A DNA stretch of 64,000 nt. Source: Lacticaseibacillus pabuli. GTDB taxonomy: Bacteria; Bacillota; Bacilli; Lactobacillales; Lactobacillaceae. The stretch spans positions 1,426,001 to 1,490,000 of the forward strand of contig NZ_CP117884.1 of NCBI RefSeq assembly GCF_028736235.1, given 5' to 3'. Below the pieces are notes generated by a model. That model ran no database searches, was not told the DNA's origin, and was given only the letters and a program-made list of their open reading frames with translations. Positions 17,494-39,989 of the stretch are shown in pieces (the first letter of the stretch is position 1; each line of letters begins with the position of its first letter). The position numbers were made by a program, and so were the translations under genes.

Positions 17494-20400
17494 CTAGTTC
17501 TTACGACGATTTGGTAATAATGCACCGAGACCAGTGAGCGCCAACATGACCAGTCCGAACAGGCCGGTCTTGCTTGCATCCCCATCACCAGTCTGTGGCA
17601 ATGTCGCCTGGCGTCCGTTCTGACCATTCCGGAATGCATTTGATCCGGACTGGGTTTGGGCACTCGCACTACCAGCGGCCACGTTCGTGGATGCTTGCCC
17701 ATTTTGGCTACCTTCAGCATTGAAGGTGTTTGGCAGGCCACCATGACCATCATTCGAGTTGTGGTCAACATTTTGACTGTGACTATTGGCCACGCCGCTG
17801 CCTTGGTGCGTTCCGTTATCGACACCGCCAAACGTTGAAGGTAGGTCGGTATTAGGAATGGTGTCGGTGTTTGTACCGGTATTGGTATTGGTATTGGTGT
17901 TTGTAACGTTATTCGTATTCGAATTGGTGTTCGGATTAGTATCATTACCCGCACCTGTGCCGTTTCCTGGGTTTGTGCCACCATTGTTGCCAGTGCCATT
18001 TCCACCAGTGATTGGATTCCGAGTGTAGATGACGGTGACCTTCACCGGTGCATCGTCTAGAACAATCAGCTTAGGAACCGTCGTCATATTCGGCGTCGCG
18101 CCAGATACAACTGGTACAGTAACAGGTTGGAACGAGGTGGGATTCCAAGCAATATGCTTGGAATCTGGTCCATTACCCGTCAGTGTCGCTGGCTGGTCAT
18201 AATCCTTAAGCGGTTGACCGTTAACGTCTGTTGGAATACTGCCATCTGAATACTGGTAGTGAATCGTCCGCTTAATCACCTTACTGAAGTGAATTGGCGG
18301 GGTACTCATTTCTTCCACGTATCCATAGTGAAAGTAAATGACTTCAGGTGTCTTGCTGCCATAGTCTGGCGTGACACTTGCACCATTTTTATCCATCTCC
18401 AGCAAGTAATAACGATTGATTGGTCCACTGGGATTCGTGATTGTCGCAGGTGCCGAATAATTCGTTGTAGTACCCGTTGGCGCAGATTTTCCCGTCGTGG
18501 CAGACTGAATCTCTTGCCCAGAGTCAGAGTCACCCAGTACATACTTAATGGTGACTGGGACCGTGTCACGGGTGTATTTGAAGGTATATGACGAATTAAC
18601 ATCTTTGACCGTGTATTTTTGATCCGTTGAATCAGGCGTGTAACCTTCGACTGTCGCAGCAGTTAGCGAGTACTCCGACCCAACCAATACGCCAAATGTT
18701 TTTGCAGGGACGAGCGCTACATTGTTTTGGTCCACATAGTTAACGGTCAACTGCGCGGCGTCAGGTGTGAAAAAGAGATTGATTGGTTGCGCTGATGCTG
18801 TCGTAAACGTGTATGAACTTGGATTTTGGGCACTTGCTGTATAGCCGGCGAGTGTGTTATACGAGCTCAGGTCAATGGCACTCCCCACCATTCCGCTAAT
18901 CGATATTGGGTCTTGAATCTTTGCATTGGTAAGTGAGTTGATAAAGTAAACATTAGCCGCAACAGCCTGAGGGTCATAAAAGAAGTCGTAAGAGGTCGTT
19001 CCTGGTGTAAGCGTGAGTGAAACCGTTGCATCACCGTGTACTTTGTACCCCGTGACAATCGGCGCATACAAGGTTATTGTCGATCCTGGATCAGCAACAA
19101 CGTCTTTCGCTATGCTAACAGGCTTGCGATTGGCATCATTTGTGAGGTAATTAATGGTAATGTGCTGTTGCGCTGCTGAAGTGCGCGTTGGTAACTGGGT
19201 CGTTTTTGCACCTAGCACGTCAGTACCATTCATTGCATAGTTAAAGGCAGTCGCATTCGCCGTTAAACCAGCAGGCGCGTTAGCATCAATAGCTACTGGG
19301 ATAATGACTTGCTGCGGTTTTCCCTTTTCGACGTTGTTAGCAGTGATTAATATGCTCTTCACCTTTGAGTAGTCAGTTTGAGTATCTGCAAATTGAGCCA
19401 ATTGTTCAGCGGTCAATGCAGAACCGTCCGTGCCCTTCACGTTGTTTAGGCTGTATTGAACACGGTAATTAGCTGGAACCGAGATTTGACCTTGGAGGTT
19501 AAGTGAGTAATCTGCTCCATCTTCACTCTTAGGTAAGTCAATCAAACCTGTGTACTGTTGCAGGTTAGAATCACCGCCGTTACCAACATAGACTCGAATC
19601 GAACCCGTTGTGGCTCCGGTCGTTGGGTAGAACGTTGCAACACCGGTAGACCCGTCACCCTCGACATACTGTTGATCATCGCCGGCCTTGATTCTGGTGT
19701 CGAGTGTCACCGACGTTGCAACGGAAATTGGCCACTGTTCGCCACCAGTAAGAGTAGGCTTATTTCTGGTAATTTCCGAATAGGCTTCTGTATAGCCAGC
19801 CTGTTGCAATTGATCCGCAATTTCGCCATAACCCAAATCACGAATATCCTGCAGGGTCCAGGTTTTCCAACCGTTTGTATCCAGCTGATTGTTCTTAATA
19901 CCGATAAACATTGGAGCCACTGAGGCGTCAGGAATGGCAATTTTCGTTAAAGGCGTCACGTCATCGTTGATTCGTGCGTTGATTGAACCATCATTAACCG
20001 TAACCGCCGCTACAGAATTATATTTAAGATTAGCTGAAGTCGTTACAGGCGTTCCAGCGGGAATGACAATACGAACATAATTCTGATTTCCATCCCGGAT
20101 AGCGGTAGAATTTGCATTAAACTTGGAGTTGGAAACGTAAGTTGTGTCATTAGGAATCGGCAAGTACATAACCGCCTGATCATCTAACATGTTATAAGTG
20201 GGAATGCTACGGTTATCAAATGGGTAGTAACTCACAGTCGCATCTGTAGTCACCGTATTTACTGAAGGTGTTTGCCCCTTGGCAGTAGCAATGTCACCAG
20301 GATGAAAGTACTGACTGTGATTAGCAATTGAATCCAAATGTGGGTTTGTGAACCCCGTCAACAAATGACTTGAGGTCAGGGTCACGTGATAGTCAATCGT

Positions 20401-22302
20401 AGATGGTGCACTCACGCCATCATTGATATTAACTGGTATGGTCACCTTTGTAGGCTGAGAAACAGCGTTATTTACCGTCAACATTGGTGTCACGGCAGTT
20501 GTCCCAAATGTGCCGTTCACGAGTTTGTTGTATGTCACCTTGTAACTCGCAACGGTGTTGACGTTTGCAGGCACCCAAACATAGTTTCCGGATGAATCTG
20601 GTAGCATGCCCGTCGTCGAAGTCGTCGCAATCTGGTTTCCGTCTTGGTCAAACGCGGTAACGGTGGCTGCCTCCCCCATTACGAGAGCGTTACTTGGGAT
20701 AGTCAACCTGATACCCGTGGTCGCTGTCCCAGTAGGTACGCCAAAAGTAAATTCAGGTGAAATCAAGTCATTGGTGTTTGAAATGATATTCAATGGGTCA
20801 GAAGTCATGAAATTAAATTGATTAACATCCGTCGGGCCAATAAATACGGTATCTGACTTCGTGCCATACACTAATGGATTGGTATTATCTGCGGCCACAT
20901 TAACGGAGAACTTTGGGAAGGTTGCAGTACTGTCACCAAATTTAGTTGAAATGGTTGCTGTTGCTGCCTGCGCAGCGGTCTGCTGTCCTGTCGCTGTGCC
21001 TGTCATTTTACCAACGAACCAAGCAAAATCAGGTGGTGTCACCACAGCATCTCCAGCAACTTGGCTCTTATCAAGCGCAATAACCACATCGCCGCCAACT
21101 CCATTTTGAGAAATAGTCCAACTCTTAGGATTGTAGGTAGCATTTTGTTGAATCATCTGGAGGCTAGCTGCTGCATTTAATTGATAGCCTGCAGGAACAG
21201 GTATATTAAAACTGTAACTGTTAAGGTTGGACGGTGCTAGGTTCTCCATGTGAAACACGTAAATAGAGGATTCAAAATCCTGATTTTGTTGAACATTTTT
21301 TGGATTATCCTTACTTGCAAATACATTTAAAGTCGGTGAGCCCTTTTGTAGATCAGCAACCTTGTAGCTGGCAGTAACCGGCATTGTAACCTCATTTACA
21401 GATGCATTTTGAGCGTCACTCACTGCTACTGTGACGTTACCCTGTTGAACAGCACCAGGTTGTGTAGGTGTGACAGCTTGCATGTGAACATCAAAATTAA
21501 CTAGTGTAGGCAAATTTGCGTTTGCGGTATAACTCACCGCTGTCTTATCGGCATTCATCGTCATTGTGGTGTTTTGAATGGGAACTGTTGAAAAAATACG
21601 CATAAAGTCTGGGACAGAAACAGTCACAACATTCCCAGCAACAACATTATTCGCAGAGACCTTAATTGTTGCGTCGTTTTTGCTCCCATCATCGGGGTTT
21701 GGTGAAGTAATGCCCTGATAGCTTTGTGTCAGGCTACTCTGCCCATCAATTGTTGCCGTAGCTGTTCCAGCCGGCTTTGCAGGGTCCGGGGTTGGCTCCG
21801 GGCTTGGCGCAGGCACAGGCTCTGGGGCTGGCCTTACCTCAGCTAATGATGACGTCTTAAATTTAGTGGGCTGAGAAACGGTCTCTTGTTGGCCATTTGT
21901 AGTTGTCTTAGCGGCGCCTTCAGTGGCCGATGCGTCTGCCGATGCACTGCTAGAAATTGCGGCAGATGGAGATTGCTCCTTGGTGGACTTAGAAGAATCA
22001 GTTTGTGGATTTGAAGAAGTTGAAGGTTCTGAAGTCCCAGGCTGATTGTCTTCGTCGGCCTTAGAATCATCCACAGTATTACCCTGCTGGGAATTCGAGG
22101 CCGCAGAAGATTGTTTCTGATTTACCAGGGCGGACTGATCTGGCGCGTCATTCGTATCCGCCGCCACGGTTTGTGACCGCATTAAACCCACACCAAAAAT
22201 TGCAGTCGTGATGCCCGCAACCATCCAGCCTTTGTTAGTTTTGTACATTTTGAAATGCGTTTTTAAGGTATTTTCGGAGTTCACTAGCTTATTATTTTTC
22301 AT
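17494..22302 (-). CDS. LPXTG-anchored MucBP-type surface adhesin with KxYKxGKxW signal
   Basis: 1602-residue cell-wall protein. Residues 18-26 (KMYKTNKGW) match the KxYKxGKxW signal peptide motif with N for G, followed by a hydrophobic stretch and probable cleavage near VAADT. A Ser/Thr/Gln-rich segment (50-160) and a Pro-rich hinge (RPAPEPVPAPSPEPTP) lead to a large beta-rich region. MucBP-like repeats (ITINYLTNDANRK, LTVNYVDQNNVAL, VTIKYVLGD, RTIHYQYSDG) precede an Asn/Thr/Gly-rich stalk. The sorting signal is LPQTG at 1568, then a membrane helix and RRKN. Two LPxTF sequences (LPSTF near 1487, LPNTF near 1523) lie in the stalk. Likely mucus or glycan binding; the ligand is unknown. Its own terminator flanks it; it looks monocistronic. 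Confidence 0.93.
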   Translation of the reverse strand: MKNNKLVNSENTLKTHFKMYKTNKGWMVAGITTAIFGVGLMRSQTVAADTNDAPDQSALVNQKQSSAASNSQQGNTVDDSKADEDNQPGTSEPSTSSNPQTDSSKSTKEQSPSAAISSSASADASATEGAAKTTTNGQQETVSQPTKFKTSSLAEVRPAPEPVPAPSPEPTPDPAKPAGTATATIDGQSSLTQSYQGITSPNPDDGSKNDATIKVSANNVVAGNVVTVSVPDFMRIFSTVPIQNTTMTMNADKTAVSYTANANLPTLVNFDVHMQAVTPTQPGAVQQGNVTVAVSDAQNASVNEVTMPVTASYKVADLQKGSPTLNVFASKDNPKNVQQNQDFESSIYVFHMENLAPSNLNSYSFNIPVPAGYQLNAAASLQMIQQNATYNPKSWTISQNGVGGDVVIALDKSQVAGDAVVTPPDFAWFVGKMTGTATGQQTAAQAATATISTKFGDSTATFPKFSVNVAADNTNPLVYGTKSDTVFIGPTDVNQFNFMTSDPLNIISNTNDLISPEFTFGVPTGTATTGIRLTIPSNALVMGEAATVTAFDQDGNQIATTSTTGMLPDSSGNYVWVPANVNTVASYKVTYNKLVNGTFGTTAVTPMLTVNNAVSQPTKVTIPVNINDGVSAPSTIDYHVTLTSSHLLTGFTNPHLDSIANHSQYFHPGDIATAKGQTPSVNTVTTDATVSYYPFDNRSIPTYNMLDDQAVMYLPIPNDTTYVSNSKFNANSTAIRDGNQNYVRIVIPAGTPVTTSANLKYNSVAAVTVNDGSINARINDDVTPLTKIAIPDASVAPMFIGIKNNQLDTNGWKTWTLQDIRDLGYGEIADQLQQAGYTEAYSEITRNKPTLTGGEQWPISVATSVTLDTRIKAGDDQQYVEGDGSTGVATFYPTTGATTGSIRVYVGNGGDSNLQQYTGLIDLPKSEDGADYSLNLQGQISVPANYRVQYSLNNVKGTDGSALTAEQLAQFADTQTDYSKVKSILITANNVEKGKPQQVIIPVAIDANAPAGLTANATAFNYAMNGTDVLGAKTTQLPTRTSAAQQHITINYLTNDANRKPVSIAKDVVADPGSTITLYAPIVTGYKVHGDATVSLTLTPGTTSYDFFYDPQAVAANVYFINSLTNAKIQDPISISGMVGSAIDLSSYNTLAGYTASAQNPSSYTFTTASAQPINLFFTPDAAQLTVNYVDQNNVALVPAKTFGVLVGSEYSLTAATVEGYTPDSTDQKYTVKDVNSSYTFKYTRDTVPVTIKYVLGDSDSGQEIQSATTGKSAPTGTTTNYSAPATITNPSGPINRYYLLEMDKNGASVTPDYGSKTPEVIYFHYGYVEEMSTPPIHFSKVIKRTIHYQYSDGSIPTDVNGQPLKDYDQPATLTGNGPDSKHIAWNPTSFQPVTVPVVSGATPNMTTVPKLIVLDDAPVKVTVIYTRNPITGGNGTGNNGGTNPGNGTGAGNDTNPNTNSNTNNVTNTNTNTNTGTNTDTIPNTDLPSTFGGVDNGTHQGSGVANSHSQNVDHNSNDGHGGLPNTFNAEGSQNGQASTNVAAGSASAQTQSGSNAFRNGQNGRQATLPQTGDGDASKTGLFGLVMLALTGLGALLPNRRKN

Positions 22303-26395: not shown

Positions 26396-26428
26396 TCAAA
26401 AAAGCCGGTGTCTTGGAAGACGCCGGCT
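26396..26428 (-). terminator. Terminator of the M-box-controlled gene
   Basis: Stem AGCCGGCGTCTT / AAGACACCGGCT and a short loop, then TTTTTTG on the minus strand. Confidence 0.88.
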
Positions 26429-26455: not shown

Positions 26456-27217
26456 TCACGAGGCGGGCACCTGGTTGTAACGGAACTCGTTTACGGCATT
26501 TAAGAGCCATAATCGAGTGTCCATTTTTGCTACCATGCCACCGTTCCGTGCTTCTTCATGTGGTGCGTCGTCAGTAGCCTGAACAACTGGCTTCTTGGCG
26601 AGCATCGTTAGCCGTGCGATTGGTGCGCTGACCATAACAGCTGCAATGAATGCGTGCAGTGCTGCAACGACCAGACGTGCGATGGAAACCATCCGGACGT
26701 CTGCGCAAAGCAGACGTGCGAACCAACGCGCATCCCCATTTGCGGTCACAGTAACCAATGCATCATTAGCGGCGGTCATGCCAGCAACGACACCATCAGG
26801 GCTCATCTTAGCCAAGCCGTCACGTACTGGGACAAAGTCTTCGCTGTCGCCATCGACAGGTAGCACATCACCCGCGCGGACCACGAGACTGTCACCAATG
26901 GCAAGGTCCTGCGCGTTAACCACGCGGTAGAGCCCGTCACGGATTACCGTGGCACGGGTGTCAGTTTGATCAAGCTTAACGGCTAGTCTGTTCATGAAGA
27001 ATGCAAAAGCGGCGGTGCCTACCAAACCAGCCGTCAGGACGACTGCTGCAACAATTACGTTAATCAGAAGGGACATCATGGTTAGTCCGGTCGTCGCAAC
27101 GCCAAATGGCAGCAGAAATCTAACGATTGGCAGACGCGTGCTCACGCGTACGTTCAGCTCACGCTGACGCGTAACCTCGAGACGATCGAGGCCACTGCTC
27201 TTAATCATCATCATCAT
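26456..27217 (-). CDS. Truncated P-type-ATPase-like membrane protein under M-box control
   Basis: 253 residues. Two predicted membrane helices (33-76), a soluble segment (about 88-165) resembling the actuator domain of P-type ATPases (LAIGDSLVVRAGDVLPVDGD, then ANGDARWFARLL), and a third hydrophobic segment (178-198). The TGES loop of the actuator is absent, and there is no DKTG phosphorylation domain, nucleotide-binding domain or further helices, so it cannot be a pump by itself. The frame is intact with AGGAGGA upstream and four ATG codons in tandem, so it looks maintained. The M-box upstream suggests a Mg2+-starvation role: an mgtA remnant, a partner or regulator of a transporter, or a new small protein type. 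Confidence 0.7.
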   Translation of the reverse strand: MMMMIKSSGLDRLEVTRQRELNVRVSTRLPIVRFLLPFGVATTGLTMMSLLINVIVAAVVLTAGLVGTAAFAFFMNRLAVKLDQTDTRATVIRDGLYRVVNAQDLAIGDSLVVRAGDVLPVDGDSEDFVPVRDGLAKMSPDGVVAGMTAANDALVTVTANGDARWFARLLCADVRMVSIARLVVAALHAFIAAVMVSAPIARLTMLAKKPVVQATDDAPHEEARNGGMVAKMDTRLWLLNAVNEFRYNQVPAS

Positions 27218-27220
27218 ATT

Positions 27221-27243
27221 TCCTCCTATATAAAACCGGAGGA
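27221..27243 (-). promoter_or_regulatory. Ribosome-binding-site hairpin of the truncated ATPase gene
   Basis: The minus strand carries TCCTCC, an 11-nt loop, then GGAGGA, which is the Shine-Dalgarno sequence of the next gene. The 6-bp arms are perfectly complementary, so the site can be hidden. This hairpin abuts the long leader stem (27244-27308), with no base between them. A translational switch is inferred. Confidence 0.55.
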
Positions 27244-27308
27244 GTGACGTTGCCGTGAACGTATTTACTTCACGGCGCCACGCATTAAGTGAGGCGGTAC
27301 AACGTCAC
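27244..27308 (-). promoter_or_regulatory. Nested hairpin overlapping the leader ORF stop
   Basis: Outer arms CAACGTCAC (27244-27252) and GTGACGTTG (27300-27308) are perfectly complementary. An inner perfect 8-bp stem (GCCGTGAA / TTCACGGC, arms 27269-27276 and 27252-27259) holds the leader ORF stop codon in its 9-nt loop; it shares base 27252 with the outer arm, so the two stems compete for one base. A ribosome translating the leader would open both stems. Confidence 0.6.
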
Positions 27309-27360
27309 TACTTCCGGGATCGGCGTTGTCCGTACTATTACCAGGCTTTTCAAGTGTCAT
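27265..27360 (-). CDS. 31-codon leader ORF between the M-box and truncated ATPase gene
   Basis: Encodes a 31-residue peptide starting MTLEKPGNSTDNADPGSS and ending MRGAVK, with acidic residues and proline at EKP, DNADPG and VVPP. AAAGGGGGTGG, 8 nt before the ATG, is a very strong ribosome binding site. It lies after the M-box terminator, so it is transcribed only on read-through. Its stop falls inside a hairpin loop. Enterobacterial MgtL-type leader peptides also combine acidic residues and prolines upstream of Mg2+ transport genes; the parallel is inference. A longer in-frame ORF through the riboswitch is not credible. Confidence 0.55.
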   Translation of the reverse strand: MTLEKPGNSTDNADPGSSDVVPPHLMRGAVK

Positions 27361-27392
27361 TGTATCCACCCCCTTTAAGGCGTTTTTCGCAT

Positions 27393-27590
27393 AAAAAATG
27401 CACACCGACCGGGCGTGCACCTGAGCATCCCAATCGTTTAGCTTTAGCACTATACGCCTAGGACCATGTCCAGCTACGTTAGAAAGAGCCTTATCGGCAA
27501 TTCCAGTTGACTCAATTGGCATCTCTCGATGTTTCTGAGCAGTAGCGTTGTACGTATAGGAGCCTCACCTAACGGAAAGCACCTTCTTCA
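27393..27590 (-). promoter_or_regulatory. M-box (ykoK) magnesium riboswitch with terminator
   Basis: The minus strand carries the hallmark TTAGGTGAGGCTCCTATAC (27554-27572) and CCTAGGCGTATAG (27446-27458) of the M-box, a Mg2+-sensing RNA. It ends in an intrinsic terminator (27393-27420: GTGCACGCC / GGTGTGCA stem, then TTTTTT). High Mg2+ should favour termination and low Mg2+ read-through into the leader ORF and truncated ATPase gene. Assignment rests on conserved sequence; covariance scoring was not run. Confidence 0.88.
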
Positions 27591-27604
27591 ATTTGTCAAC
27601 TACT

Positions 27605-27633
27605 ATTCTAACCTGACACGCCCGGGTAGTCAA
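27605..27633 (-). promoter_or_regulatory. Promoter of the M-box transcript
   Basis: TTGACT-17 bp-TAGAAT, placing transcription start about 10 nt before the riboswitch. Confidence 0.75.
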
Positions 27634-37259: not shown

Positions 37260-39989
37260 TTAGTGAAGCTGACTCTTGGCAGTGGCCGAATGAATCAAGG
37301 CCAAGCGTGTGAACTTAACCGCTTCGGTAATAATCAGCACAACCAGTCCGGCAAGTGTCGGCACAATCCAGCCGATGAAGAAACCAACGGGGGTTGTGTG
37401 GAAAATGTCGTTCATGAACGGCAGGTAGATGATGCCGCATTGCAGTATCAGCAAAATACCAATAATCACAAACGCCATCCGGTTCTGGAAGAAGTACTTC
37501 GAGATAACAGGATGACTGTTACGCAGATTGAACAGGTAGAAAATCTTGCCAAAGATCACAATCTGCAGGGTCACGGTACTACCAACGACATTGCTAAAGC
37601 CGTGACCCACCATCATGTCGTAAACGAAGATACCCAATCCGGCAATCAGAACCGCGACATAGGCGATTTCAACCCCATGCCATTTGGTCAAGATACCCTC
37701 ATGAATGTTCCGCGGCCCACGCGTCATAATGCCGGATTCAGGTGGTTCAAAGATGAACGCAAACTGAATCGTCAGCGCGGAAACCATGTTAATCCAGAGC
37801 AGTTGTGTTGGGAACAATGGCAGTTCCTGACGCAGGGCAATACTCATAACGACCACGAGTCCTTCAGCAAAACTCGTTGGCAGGAGGTAACGAATGGTCT
37901 TACGAATGTTGTCGAAGACGTGACGGCCTTCACGCACAGATTCGAGAATCGTGGTGAAGTTGTCATCGGCAAGGACCATGTCGGCCGCACTCTTGGCAAC
38001 CTCGGTCCCTTTAATCCCCATGGCAACCCCGATATCGGCTTGCTTTAAGGCCGGCGCATCGTTGACCCCGTCCCCAGTCATGGAAACGACGTGTCCGACA
38101 CGCTGCTGGGACTGCACGATGCGCAGCTTATCGCCAGGCGTCGTGCGCGCAAAGACGGTGTAGCGGTCAATCACCTTGTCCAGTTCATCGTCGCTCATTG
38201 CTTCGAGTTCTGGCCCCGTGATGGCCTCAATGTCTTCGCCCAAGTTCAATTGCTTGGCAATCGCACTTGCGGTCCGCGGATCATCCCCGGTAATCATCTT
38301 GACCTTCACCCCAGCAATCCGGAGTTCGGAGACCGCGGTCGCGACTTCAGGGCGAGGCGGGTCAATGATCCCGACCAAACCGCAAATCGTCAGGCCATCC
38401 CCAATGGCATCCTGATCAATTTCAGTGGTGCCCTCTGGAACGGGCTGGTAACCCAAGGCCACGACACGTTTCCCTGCGCTGGCAAGGTGCGCCACGGTCT
38501 TCTCAATGCCGGCACCATCCGCACGGCCGCCGTGGTCTTCAATCAGCTTGACCAAAGTCTGCGGCGCACCCTTCACTTCCAGCACGGTCTTGCCATCAAC
38601 CTCGGCAAGACGTGCGGAGTAACGGAAGGCGGAGTCAAATGGCAACGAGTCAATTTCGTGGACATCGGCGTCCTGCCCGTTCAGCTTGTGGTACAGCGCC
38701 GTCAACGCACCGTCAGTTGGCTCACCAGTGAGGACCCAGCGGCCGTCTTCTTCGTGGAACTCGGCATCTGACGTTTCACCGGCAATCCGCACGAGCCACT
38801 TCAGCTCGGGCACTTGTTGCCAGTCGAGTTTCGTGCCATTAGCGTCAAGCACGTCCCCATCGTCTTCATAACCGACGCCACTCACGGTGTAAAGCTTACC
38901 GCCAGCTGCGATATCGGTAACGGTCATTTCGTTTTTGGTTAGCGTCCCGGTCTTATCAGTGTTAACAATGTCCACAGCACCCAGGGTTTCAACGGCAGGG
39001 AGCGTCTTAACAATGGCGTTCTTCTGCGTGAGTTTCCGGGTCCCCATGGCCAGGACCACCGACGTGCTGGCCGGCAACCCTTCAGGCATGGAGCCCACGA
39101 CCATGGTAACCACGGCAATGGTCAAGGTCGGCAGGCTGTATACCTTGGTAATCATCCCAACGACAAAGAGCAGAACGGCAACGGCAATAATCGCAATGGA
39201 CAACTGGAGCCCCAGCTTGTTCAAGTTGCGGATCAGTGGCGTTGGCTTAGCCTTGATTTCCCCAACAGAGCTGGAAATTTGACCAATTTCGGTGTTAACC
39301 CCAGTGGCAACGACAATCCCGATCCCGGAACCAGTCGTCACGGCGGTTGACGCAAACGCCATGTTGGTGCGTTCAGCCAGTGGCACTTTGGCTTGGGCTA
39401 ATGGATCTTCCGTTTTTTCAACGGAATTCGTTTCCCCAGTCAGGACAGATTCCTGAATACTGAGGTTGTCTGCGGAGATGAGGCGCATGTCGGCGGGAAC
39501 AGAGTCCCCTGCTTCCAGCTGCACGACATCGCCCGGCACGAGTTCACGGGAGTCAAGCTCCAGCTTCGCGCCGCCGCGAAAGACATAGTTGTTCGCAACG
39601 AGCAATTCTGAGATCTTCGCGAGGGCGTTGTCGGCAGATTCCTCTTGGAAGTAGCCGATAAACGCATTCGCAATGATTACCAAGCCGATTACGGCCGAGT
39701 CAGAGTAATGGTGCATGAAGAAGGTCAAAATCGCGGCTGCAGCCAAGATATAGTTAATGCTGTCATTAAATTGACGCAAGAAGCGCAGTATCTTGGACTG
39801 CTTTTTCGCCTTAATTTCGTTTGACCCATACTGCGCGCGGCGCTTTTTAGCCTCCGCCGCGGTGAGCCCATCTTCAGTATCAGTACCTAGCTTTTTCGCT
39901 AGTTCCGCCTCATTTAGCTGCCATATTTCAGGTGTGCTTGGCGTATGTTCACCGTCCGGTTTTCCGGACTTCGACTCAGAAGAGTCCAT
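37260..39989 (-). CDS. Cation-transporting P-type ATPase (P2 type)
   Basis: 909 residues. Complete P-type pump: cation-ATPase N domain (IWQLNEAELAKKLGTDTEDGLT), actuator TGET in VLTGETNSVEK, phosphorylation DKTGTLTKNEMTV, hinge MTGDGVNDAPALKQADIGVA, and a C-terminal block of membrane helices. This layout matches Ca2+/Mn2+-type P2 ATPases; the ion cannot be named from sequence alone. No clear ribosome binding site at the usual distance (AAGGA is more than 12 nt from the ATG). It has its own promoter and terminator. Confidence 0.93.
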   Translation of the reverse strand: MDSSESKSGKPDGEHTPSTPEIWQLNEAELAKKLGTDTEDGLTAAEAKKRRAQYGSNEIKAKKQSKILRFLRQFNDSINYILAAAAILTFFMHHYSDSAVIGLVIIANAFIGYFQEESADNALAKISELLVANNYVFRGGAKLELDSRELVPGDVVQLEAGDSVPADMRLISADNLSIQESVLTGETNSVEKTEDPLAQAKVPLAERTNMAFASTAVTTGSGIGIVVATGVNTEIGQISSSVGEIKAKPTPLIRNLNKLGLQLSIAIIAVAVLLFVVGMITKVYSLPTLTIAVVTMVVGSMPEGLPASTSVVLAMGTRKLTQKNAIVKTLPAVETLGAVDIVNTDKTGTLTKNEMTVTDIAAGGKLYTVSGVGYEDDGDVLDANGTKLDWQQVPELKWLVRIAGETSDAEFHEEDGRWVLTGEPTDGALTALYHKLNGQDADVHEIDSLPFDSAFRYSARLAEVDGKTVLEVKGAPQTLVKLIEDHGGRADGAGIEKTVAHLASAGKRVVALGYQPVPEGTTEIDQDAIGDGLTICGLVGIIDPPRPEVATAVSELRIAGVKVKMITGDDPRTASAIAKQLNLGEDIEAITGPELEAMSDDELDKVIDRYTVFARTTPGDKLRIVQSQQRVGHVVSMTGDGVNDAPALKQADIGVAMGIKGTEVAKSAADMVLADDNFTTILESVREGRHVFDNIRKTIRYLLPTSFAEGLVVVMSIALRQELPLFPTQLLWINMVSALTIQFAFIFEPPESGIMTRGPRNIHEGILTKWHGVEIAYVAVLIAGLGIFVYDMMVGHGFSNVVGSTVTLQIVIFGKIFYLFNLRNSHPVISKYFFQNRMAFVIIGILLILQCGIIYLPFMNDIFHTTPVGFFIGWIVPTLAGLVVLIITEAVKFTRLALIHSATAKSQLH

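Follow-up and report, generated by a model that had tools for sequence, protein, structure and literature searches.

A putative stacked control leader, combining an M-box riboswitch with a leader-peptide attenuator, 5′ of an incomplete MgtA half protein in Lacticaseibacillus

Can one small membrane protein of a Gram-positive bacterium stand under two layers of control, one on transcription and one on translation, and could both of them answer to Mg2+? This question is raised by a locus of Lacticaseibacillus pabuli, located in a stretch of 64,000 nucleotides (contig NZ_CP117884.1, positions 1,426,001 to 1,490,000) which was analysed as a whole and is referred to here as the window. A sequence-only reading of the locus had proposed a stacked unit, in which transcription is set by Mg2+ through an M-box riboswitch and translation by whether a ribosome is moving through a leader open reading frame (ORF). 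Here, we follow up this proposal by covariance model searches, folding computations and comparison with related genomes. The best explanation, and in our judgement a probable one, is a stacked Mg2+-responsive 5′ leader consisting of the M-box and a four-segment translational attenuator.

All parts of the control unit and its target gene lie on the minus strand of the window. The parts noted earlier, namely promoter, M-box with terminator, leader ORF, hairpins and an ORF of 253 aa, could all be located in the sequence, and the features are as follows.

27605..27633, minus strand: promoter, with TTGACT (27633-27628), a 17-bp spacer and TAGAAT (27610-27605), read from the sequence as a consensus match only

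27422..27583, minus strand: M-box Mg2+ riboswitch aptamer (RF00380), 123.3 bits against a gathering threshold of 44, E 3.8e-27, full model 1-169

about 27393..27420, minus strand: intrinsic terminator hairpin with T6/U-run, the expression platform of the M-box, from sequence and fold

27358..27374, minus strand: segment 1, leader ribosome binding site (RBS) and start codon, pairing with segment 2 (duplex −19.6 kcal/mol, bulged A)

27265..27360, minus strand: leader ORF of 31 codons plus TAA, MTLEKPGNSTDNADPGSSDVVPPHLMRGAVK, with similar leaders in 29 of 30 genus genomes

27319..27330, minus strand: acidic motif D11-N-A-D14, proposed pause or drop-off site, two or more residues of this four-residue stretch being acidic in all 29 leaders

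27291..27318, minus strand: segment 2, made up of the Shine-Dalgarno mimic CCCGGAAG and of GTGACGTTGTACCGCC, located within the leader ORF and able to pair with segment 1 or 3

27236..27252, minus strand: segment 3, CAACGTCACTCCTCCGG, holding the anti-Shine-Dalgarno and pairing with segment 2 (−28.3 kcal/mol) or segment 4 (−11.3 kcal/mol)

27215..27227, minus strand: segment 4, AGGAGG Shine-Dalgarno and ATG of the MgtA-derived gene

26456..27217, minus strand: membrane protein of 253 aa, an N-terminal half of MgtA lacking the TGES loop and the P/N domains (pseudo-MgtA)

26398..26428, minus strand: probable intrinsic terminator 3′ of the gene, a GC-rich inverted repeat and T-run seen in the sequence, unscored

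The identity of the M-box, for which a covariance model score had been set beforehand as the test, is settled by a value far over the cut-off, and a hairpin followed by T6 stands directly 3′ of the aptamer, in the place of the intrinsic-terminator expression platform of RF00380. It is the sole Rfam match at the gathering threshold across the window, and the genome-wide covariance search detected no second M-box in the L. pabuli genome. The leader ORF has the RBS AAAGGGGG, and the hairpin TCCTCC (27243-27238):GGAGGA (27226-27221) over the next RBS is present in the computed minimum-energy structure. Given the probable terminator 3′ of the gene, the transcript is likely monocistronic. Elsewhere in the window, the minus strand carries an ORF of 1602 aa (17494-22302), repeat-rich and with LPQTGDGD near its C-terminus, apparently a sortase-anchored surface protein.

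The genus sample comprised 30 Lacticaseibacillus genomes, and the leader analyses took in 29 leaders. Exactly one M-box over the cut-off was found in 26 of the 30 genomes, each with a leader ORF and the same kind of gene on its 3′ side. The leader was located in 29 genomes, three of them M-box-free; the sole exception is an 85% complete genome (G003), in which it was not located. For the M-box-free genomes G012, G017 and G019, the genome search gave no M-box and none was found near the leader even at E up to 10, by which a hidden M-box near the leader is ruled out. All three retain leader ORF, pairings and gene, the last of these being broken in G019, and their leaders sit behind sigma-70-like promoters, as read by eye. 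They are taken here as putative natural deletions of the first layer. Both layers of the proposed unit are therefore found together in 26 of 30 genomes, but the leader layer also stands without an M-box. Because leader, pairings and gene recur across the genus, the layout can be judged to be above chance level. The conservation in relatives on which the sequence-only reading had staked its case is found for the leader start and the pairings, the arms of which coevolve (see below); a stop codon is always present, at a variable position of 27 to 33 codons.

What this leader would control is an MgtA-derived protein. Against PF00122, the 253-aa protein matches only the start of the A-domain (residues 85-123) with 26.7 bits, just under the cut-off of 28.1. 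Its sequence contains neither TGES nor DKTGT, which we take to be the A-domain motif and the P-domain phosphorylation site, respectively, of MgtA (P-type ATPase IIIB, TIGR01524). By eye, its SGL start and A-domain residues resemble MgtA-like ORFs, and the genus members share SGL near the start, the A-domain residues and a FRYNQDPVS-like tail. A Foldseek search with the predicted model returned P-type ATPases (best 6zhh with E 1.3e-8; MgtA 8uy9 with E 4.9e-6); with a mean pLDDT of 68.3 and a pTM of 0.47 the model is weak, and any fold finer than ‘P-type ATPase N-terminal part’ was set aside. A search of 5.8 billion proteins, by a method limited to relatives sharing short exact words, gave 2 matches only.

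The protein had earlier been regarded as a truncated P-type ATPase; rather than a one-off truncation, it is a genus-wide family with relatives in other genera. A random truncation is ruled out: across the genus there are relatives of about this length whose frames are open and whose C-terminal tail is conserved, and they show purifying selection. The gene might nevertheless be a decaying mgtA remnant and its control region a relic of no consequence, a reading that draws on an identity of only 21-38% to the reference sequence for most genus members (74% for one relative), on the broken ORF of G019 and on dN/dS values of 0.14-0.34 in 11 close genus pairs, above the 0.02-0.06 of def in the six pairs with a value. 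These same dN/dS values speak against decay, as do the ORF being intact in 28 of 29 cases, the conserved SGL start and tail, and a leader that changes even less than the gene in close pairs. We consider decay the least probable of the alternatives weighed here, and the protein is best described as an incomplete MgtA half that is apparently under purifying selection. In G019 (L089), leader and hairpins are kept and the half-protein ORF is split into pieces of 44 and 205 aa.

A match to TIGR01524 over the cut-off was found in 5 of the 30 genus genomes; the L. pabuli genome has none, its best match reaching 426.4 against 610.75 bits. A role as partner or inhibitor of MgtA as the only function is consequently not favoured. 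Our guess is that the half protein may be a Mg2+-stress membrane regulator. On the minus strand of the window (37776-39929), about 10 kb from the M-box, there is also a gene for a P-type ATPase, its open frame spanning 916 aa, which scores below the MgtA cut-off.

Minimum-energy folds of the 26 M-box leaders mostly consist of two hairpins: 1:2, in which leader RBS and start pair with the VxVPPL codons around a bulged A, and 3:4, in which the anti-Shine-Dalgarno pairs with the Shine-Dalgarno, often including the start codon; the folds of G011 and G028 are without 1:2. The cost of opening the target Shine-Dalgarno was computed by removing RNA from the 5′ end, mimicking masking by a ribosome, so that the RNA behind the ribosome is treated as absent and pseudoknots and kinetics are ignored. 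Computed in this way, the opening cost in the window is 6.6 kcal/mol with no ribosome, about 0.6 kcal/mol (range 0.1-1.0) with the ribosome early in the leader and 7.2 kcal/mol (range 5.5-7.7) with the ribosome late. The RBS is free while the leading edge of the ribosome stands before about codon 16 and closed again beyond it, and such an OFF-ON-OFF course is seen in most of the 22 leaders listed, out of 26. The proposal that the leader ribosome sets translation is thus supported by computation, with the refinement that its position decides.

The mean switch amplitude over 29 leaders was 4.55 kcal/mol, compared with 0.69 kcal/mol for synonymous recodings and −0.45 kcal/mol for codon shuffles. 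With 20 peptide-keeping recoded versions per leader, the real amplitude was unmatched by any of them in 19 of 29 leaders and equalled by at least one in the other 10, up to 11 of 20 versions doing as well as the real leader in G009; codon shuffles never reached it in 28 of 29. Weak amplitudes were obtained for G011 (0.7), G021 (1.3) and G026 (1.8), and G021 is nearly open without a ribosome (opening cost 1.4). That the leader RNA fits a four-segment translational attenuator, with 1:2 and 3:4 opposed to 2:3, is well supported.

The same computations bear on plain coupling, in which ribosomes finishing the leader melt the hairpin or re-initiate and full leader translation is the ON state. Such coupling would suit a leader lying directly 5′ of the gene, with 50 nt from leader stop to gene start in the window. 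Across the genomes, however, this distance is anywhere between 33 and 131 nt. In addition, the RBS is computed closed once the leading edge has come to about codon 17, and it stays so past the stop until the masking reaches the anti-RBS region. We hold plain coupling to be improbable.

Support for the pairings of the four-segment attenuator comes from exchanging arms between genomes. Within-genome duplexes had mean energies of −20.2 for 1:2, −31.0 for 2:3 and −16.7 for 3:4, against means of −16.9, −25.5 and −14.7 with exchanged arms, and 0 of 5000 permutations reached the real value in any of the three, the sequences being related and the tests hence not independent. Taken genome by genome, an arm frequently finds a better partner elsewhere than in its own genome; the 3:4 arm of the window ranks 27 of 29 by row and 2 by column, and the 2:3 arm of G004 ranks 29 of 29 by row. 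Arm exchange was used for 2:3 and 3:4 because the MAFFT alignment looks unreliable past the 3′ end of the leader. Helix 1:2 was counted on the alignment for 10 of the 14 pairs seen in G001, four end or poorly pairing or aligned ones having been dropped beforehand: 90.7% of cells are paired and the covariation score is 0.275, neither of which was reached by any of 500 shuffles. The numbers of doubly changed pairs and of pair types are unexceptional, being equalled or exceeded in 101 and 176 of the 500 shuffles, respectively. On average across the genus, the segment arms can be said to coevolve.

The peptide itself is also conserved. In a motif alignment anchored at the second D of D-x-x-D, the first D is kept in 28 of 29 leaders, with the codons GAC (18) and GAT (10), and at least two acidic residues lie within the four-residue motif stretch in every leader. 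Since both Asp codons are in use at the first D, the constraint here would act on the peptide. The codons after the motif are near-frozen (CCC 28 of 28, GGA 25 of 25, AGG 20 and AGA 4), and because the Pro and Gly codons are fixed despite synonymous options, this constraint would act on the RNA, as expected of a Shine-Dalgarno mimic that pairs with the anti-Shine-Dalgarno. Constraints on peptide and RNA thus seem to stand side by side in the leader. Between G002 and G023, the leader shows no difference over 30 codons, with a dS of 2.1 for the neighbouring gene, and pooling of the leader over 11 pairs gave a pS of 0.074 and a pN of 0.028.

Since the peptide motif is conserved throughout the genus and to some extent in other genera, it might be argued that the leader peptide is a functional small protein and the hairpins are incidental; such a role has been suggested for Rv1805A of M. 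tuberculosis (PMC12810186). Incidental hairpins would not explain that synonymous recoding abolishes the switch on average, that the arms coevolve, or that no synonymous alternatives are used for the Pro and Gly codons after the motif, and the C-termini of the leaders differ in length and sequence. A purely functional peptide is therefore very improbable.

Another possibility retains the four-segment attenuator and assigns it a signal other than Mg2+ at acidic residues, be it ribosome pausing at the prolines of VPP, the activity of EF-P or tRNA charging. VPP or a close variant recurs in many leaders of the genus, with P at +8 in 28 of 29 leaders and at +9 in 24 of 29. PP is replaced by LP in five leaders and by SP in one, though, and the leaders inspected in the groups g11, g12, g14 and g25 from other genera are without PP. 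Moreover, a ribosome held at VPP in the window (codons 22-23) would have its leading edge at about codon 27, where the RBS is computed closed, and a proline stall as the ON signal is not favoured. We regard this signal as unlikely, while granting it some weight.

The acidic motif is the stronger candidate, given where it lies relative to the switch. The register analysis started from 45 leaders, 29 of the genus and 16 from five other genera, and dropped g25_L092 (open-to-closed step below 1.5 kcal/mol), leaving 44; it assumes a footprint of 15 nt from the P-site codon. At the switch step, the A site is at most one codon from an acidic residue in 41 of the 44 leaders, many of which are close relatives and so not 44 independent cases, against 17.7 expected at random positions. 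The three exceptions are G006, g14_L060 and g21_L104. In g14, acidic residues fall at codons 2-3 in each of the four leaders, three of which also have their step there; the g11 and g21 leaders have one acidic residue only. The closeness of an acidic residue to the switch point is suggestive.

Beyond the genus, M-boxes were found in 87 of 251 genomes of the family Lactobacillaceae that were searched, and 30 plus 17 further stretches from these loci were inspected. Such leader ORFs precede MgtA-derived half proteins in g11, g12 and g25, a full-length (878 aa) MgtA-like ORF in g21, and an MgtA-like ORF that extends past the stretch examined in g14 and g30. Of these, g11, g12 and g21 show a clear OFF-ON-OFF course, with different sequences, and g25 and g14 a weak or irregular one. 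In the loci inspected from g5, g9, g10 and g37, no such leader was found between M-box and MgtA-like ORF. One g25 genome (G053) has both a full-length MgtA-like ORF and a half protein linked to M-boxes (L090 and L085).

Two further kinds of loci were observed in this survey. In g15/g20 (L096-L099 and L105), an M-box is joined to a leader ORF with a DPG[AS] motif, and at least about 0.6 kb 3′ of the leader are without a same-strand ORF of at least 90 aa in the stretches read; an M-box-controlled noncoding RNA or a distant target is possible. In g37 (L093, genome G208), a leaderless M-box stands 5′ of an MgtA N-terminal half of 332 aa, which ends just past the TM4 region, before the phosphorylation site, and has a degenerate TGE loop.

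Computation and comparison support the aptamer, the leader, mutually exclusive pairings, their coevolution and an acidic motif near the switch point. From these elements the following mechanism can be proposed. In the first layer, high Mg2+ would cause the M-box to end transcription. On transcripts that read through, the leader ORF would drive the attenuator as second layer. With no ribosome, both ribosome binding sites would be masked, that of the leader by 1:2 and that of the MgtA-derived gene by 3:4 (OFF). Once a ribosome starts on the leader, it would melt 1:2; as long as it stays within the first ~11 codons, or drops off there, 2:3 could form and free the target RBS (ON). Once past the acidic D-x-x-D, it would cover segment 2, and 3:4 would re-form (OFF). 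The most likely sensor would be translation that is slowed or aborted at the acidic motif when ribosomes are without Mg2+, in line with what is reported for Salmonella mgtQ and E. coli mgtL, and therefore both layers would open at low Mg2+. We infer that the RNAs behave in this way in cells, with the acidic motif as sensor and Mg2+ as signal. Mg2+ sensing by the leader is the best inference from precedent and position, its chances being about evenly balanced.

A broader proposal falls slightly short of an even chance. Lactobacilli would possess a ribosome-based Mg2+ sensor, in which abortion at an acidic peptide at low Mg2+ opens translation of mgtA or of the half protein; it would have arisen independently of enterobacterial mgtL and mgtQ, be stacked on an M-box in most species and act alone where the M-box was lost. 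Retained by most of the genus in the absence of a recognisable MgtA, the half protein would represent a novel type of membrane protein for Mg2+ stress. If true, ribosomal Mg2+ sensing, described in enterobacteria, would also exist in Gram-positives and could stack with, or replace, a Mg2+ riboswitch. The three M-box-free genomes make the contribution of each layer directly testable, and a conserved, catalytically incomplete MgtA half protein is pointed to as a genus-wide M-box target.

Several known systems share features with this leader. In the translational attenuators of ermC and cat, which respond to antibiotics, stalling of a ribosome in the leader uncovers the RBS that follows; the four-segment logic is alike, whereas no drug link is seen here. 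The M-box (ykoK leader, RF00380) is matched by an aptamer over the cut-off and an intrinsic terminator 5′ of an MgtA-derived gene, but here a second switch, the leader-peptide one, follows on its 3′ side. The M. tuberculosis pe20 leader likewise has an M-box, a conserved small ORF (rv1805A) and alternative anti-Shine-Dalgarno pairings; in that case, it is the M-box that reportedly governs how the upstream ORF is translated, together with Rho, whereas here the upstream ORF is proposed as sensor for the downstream gene (PMC12810186). An M-box joined to a leader-peptide switch in lactobacilli was not found described in a literature search judged from titles and the starts of abstracts.

Closer likenesses are found among enterobacterial leader peptides. 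E. coli mgtL is a short leader ORF with early acidic residues and prolines, 5′ of the mgtA gene, in which low Mg2+ favours ribosome drop-off at EPDP (PMC11282234). In contrast to the present leader, where computation places the effect at the RBS and transcription is left to the M-box, mgtL acts via Rho-dependent transcription termination, and the spacing of EPDP is unlike D-x-x-D. The closest mechanism is Salmonella mgtQ, a short ORF (8 codons) of a PhoP-controlled operon, which lies between mgtC and mgtB and controls translation of the latter; its acidic codons are needed, and ribosome destabilisation or translation abort is proposed to free the RBS (PMC8092293). Both systems oppose 1:2 and 3:4 to 2:3, with the RBS of a Mg2+-transporter gene in 3:4 (here by computation), and in both the switch point is near acidic codons, placed in our case, with the conserved D-x-x-D, where a halted ribosome leaves 2:3 free (41 of 44 leaders in register; motif in 29 of 29). 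They differ in host, mgtQ being from a Gram-negative, in length, with 8 codons against 27-33, and in target, mgtB against an MgtA N-terminal half; in addition, the Lacticaseibacillus ORF belongs to a 5′ leader and follows an M-box. No homology is claimed; by analogy, the two would work alike in different phyla, with different lengths and on different targets.
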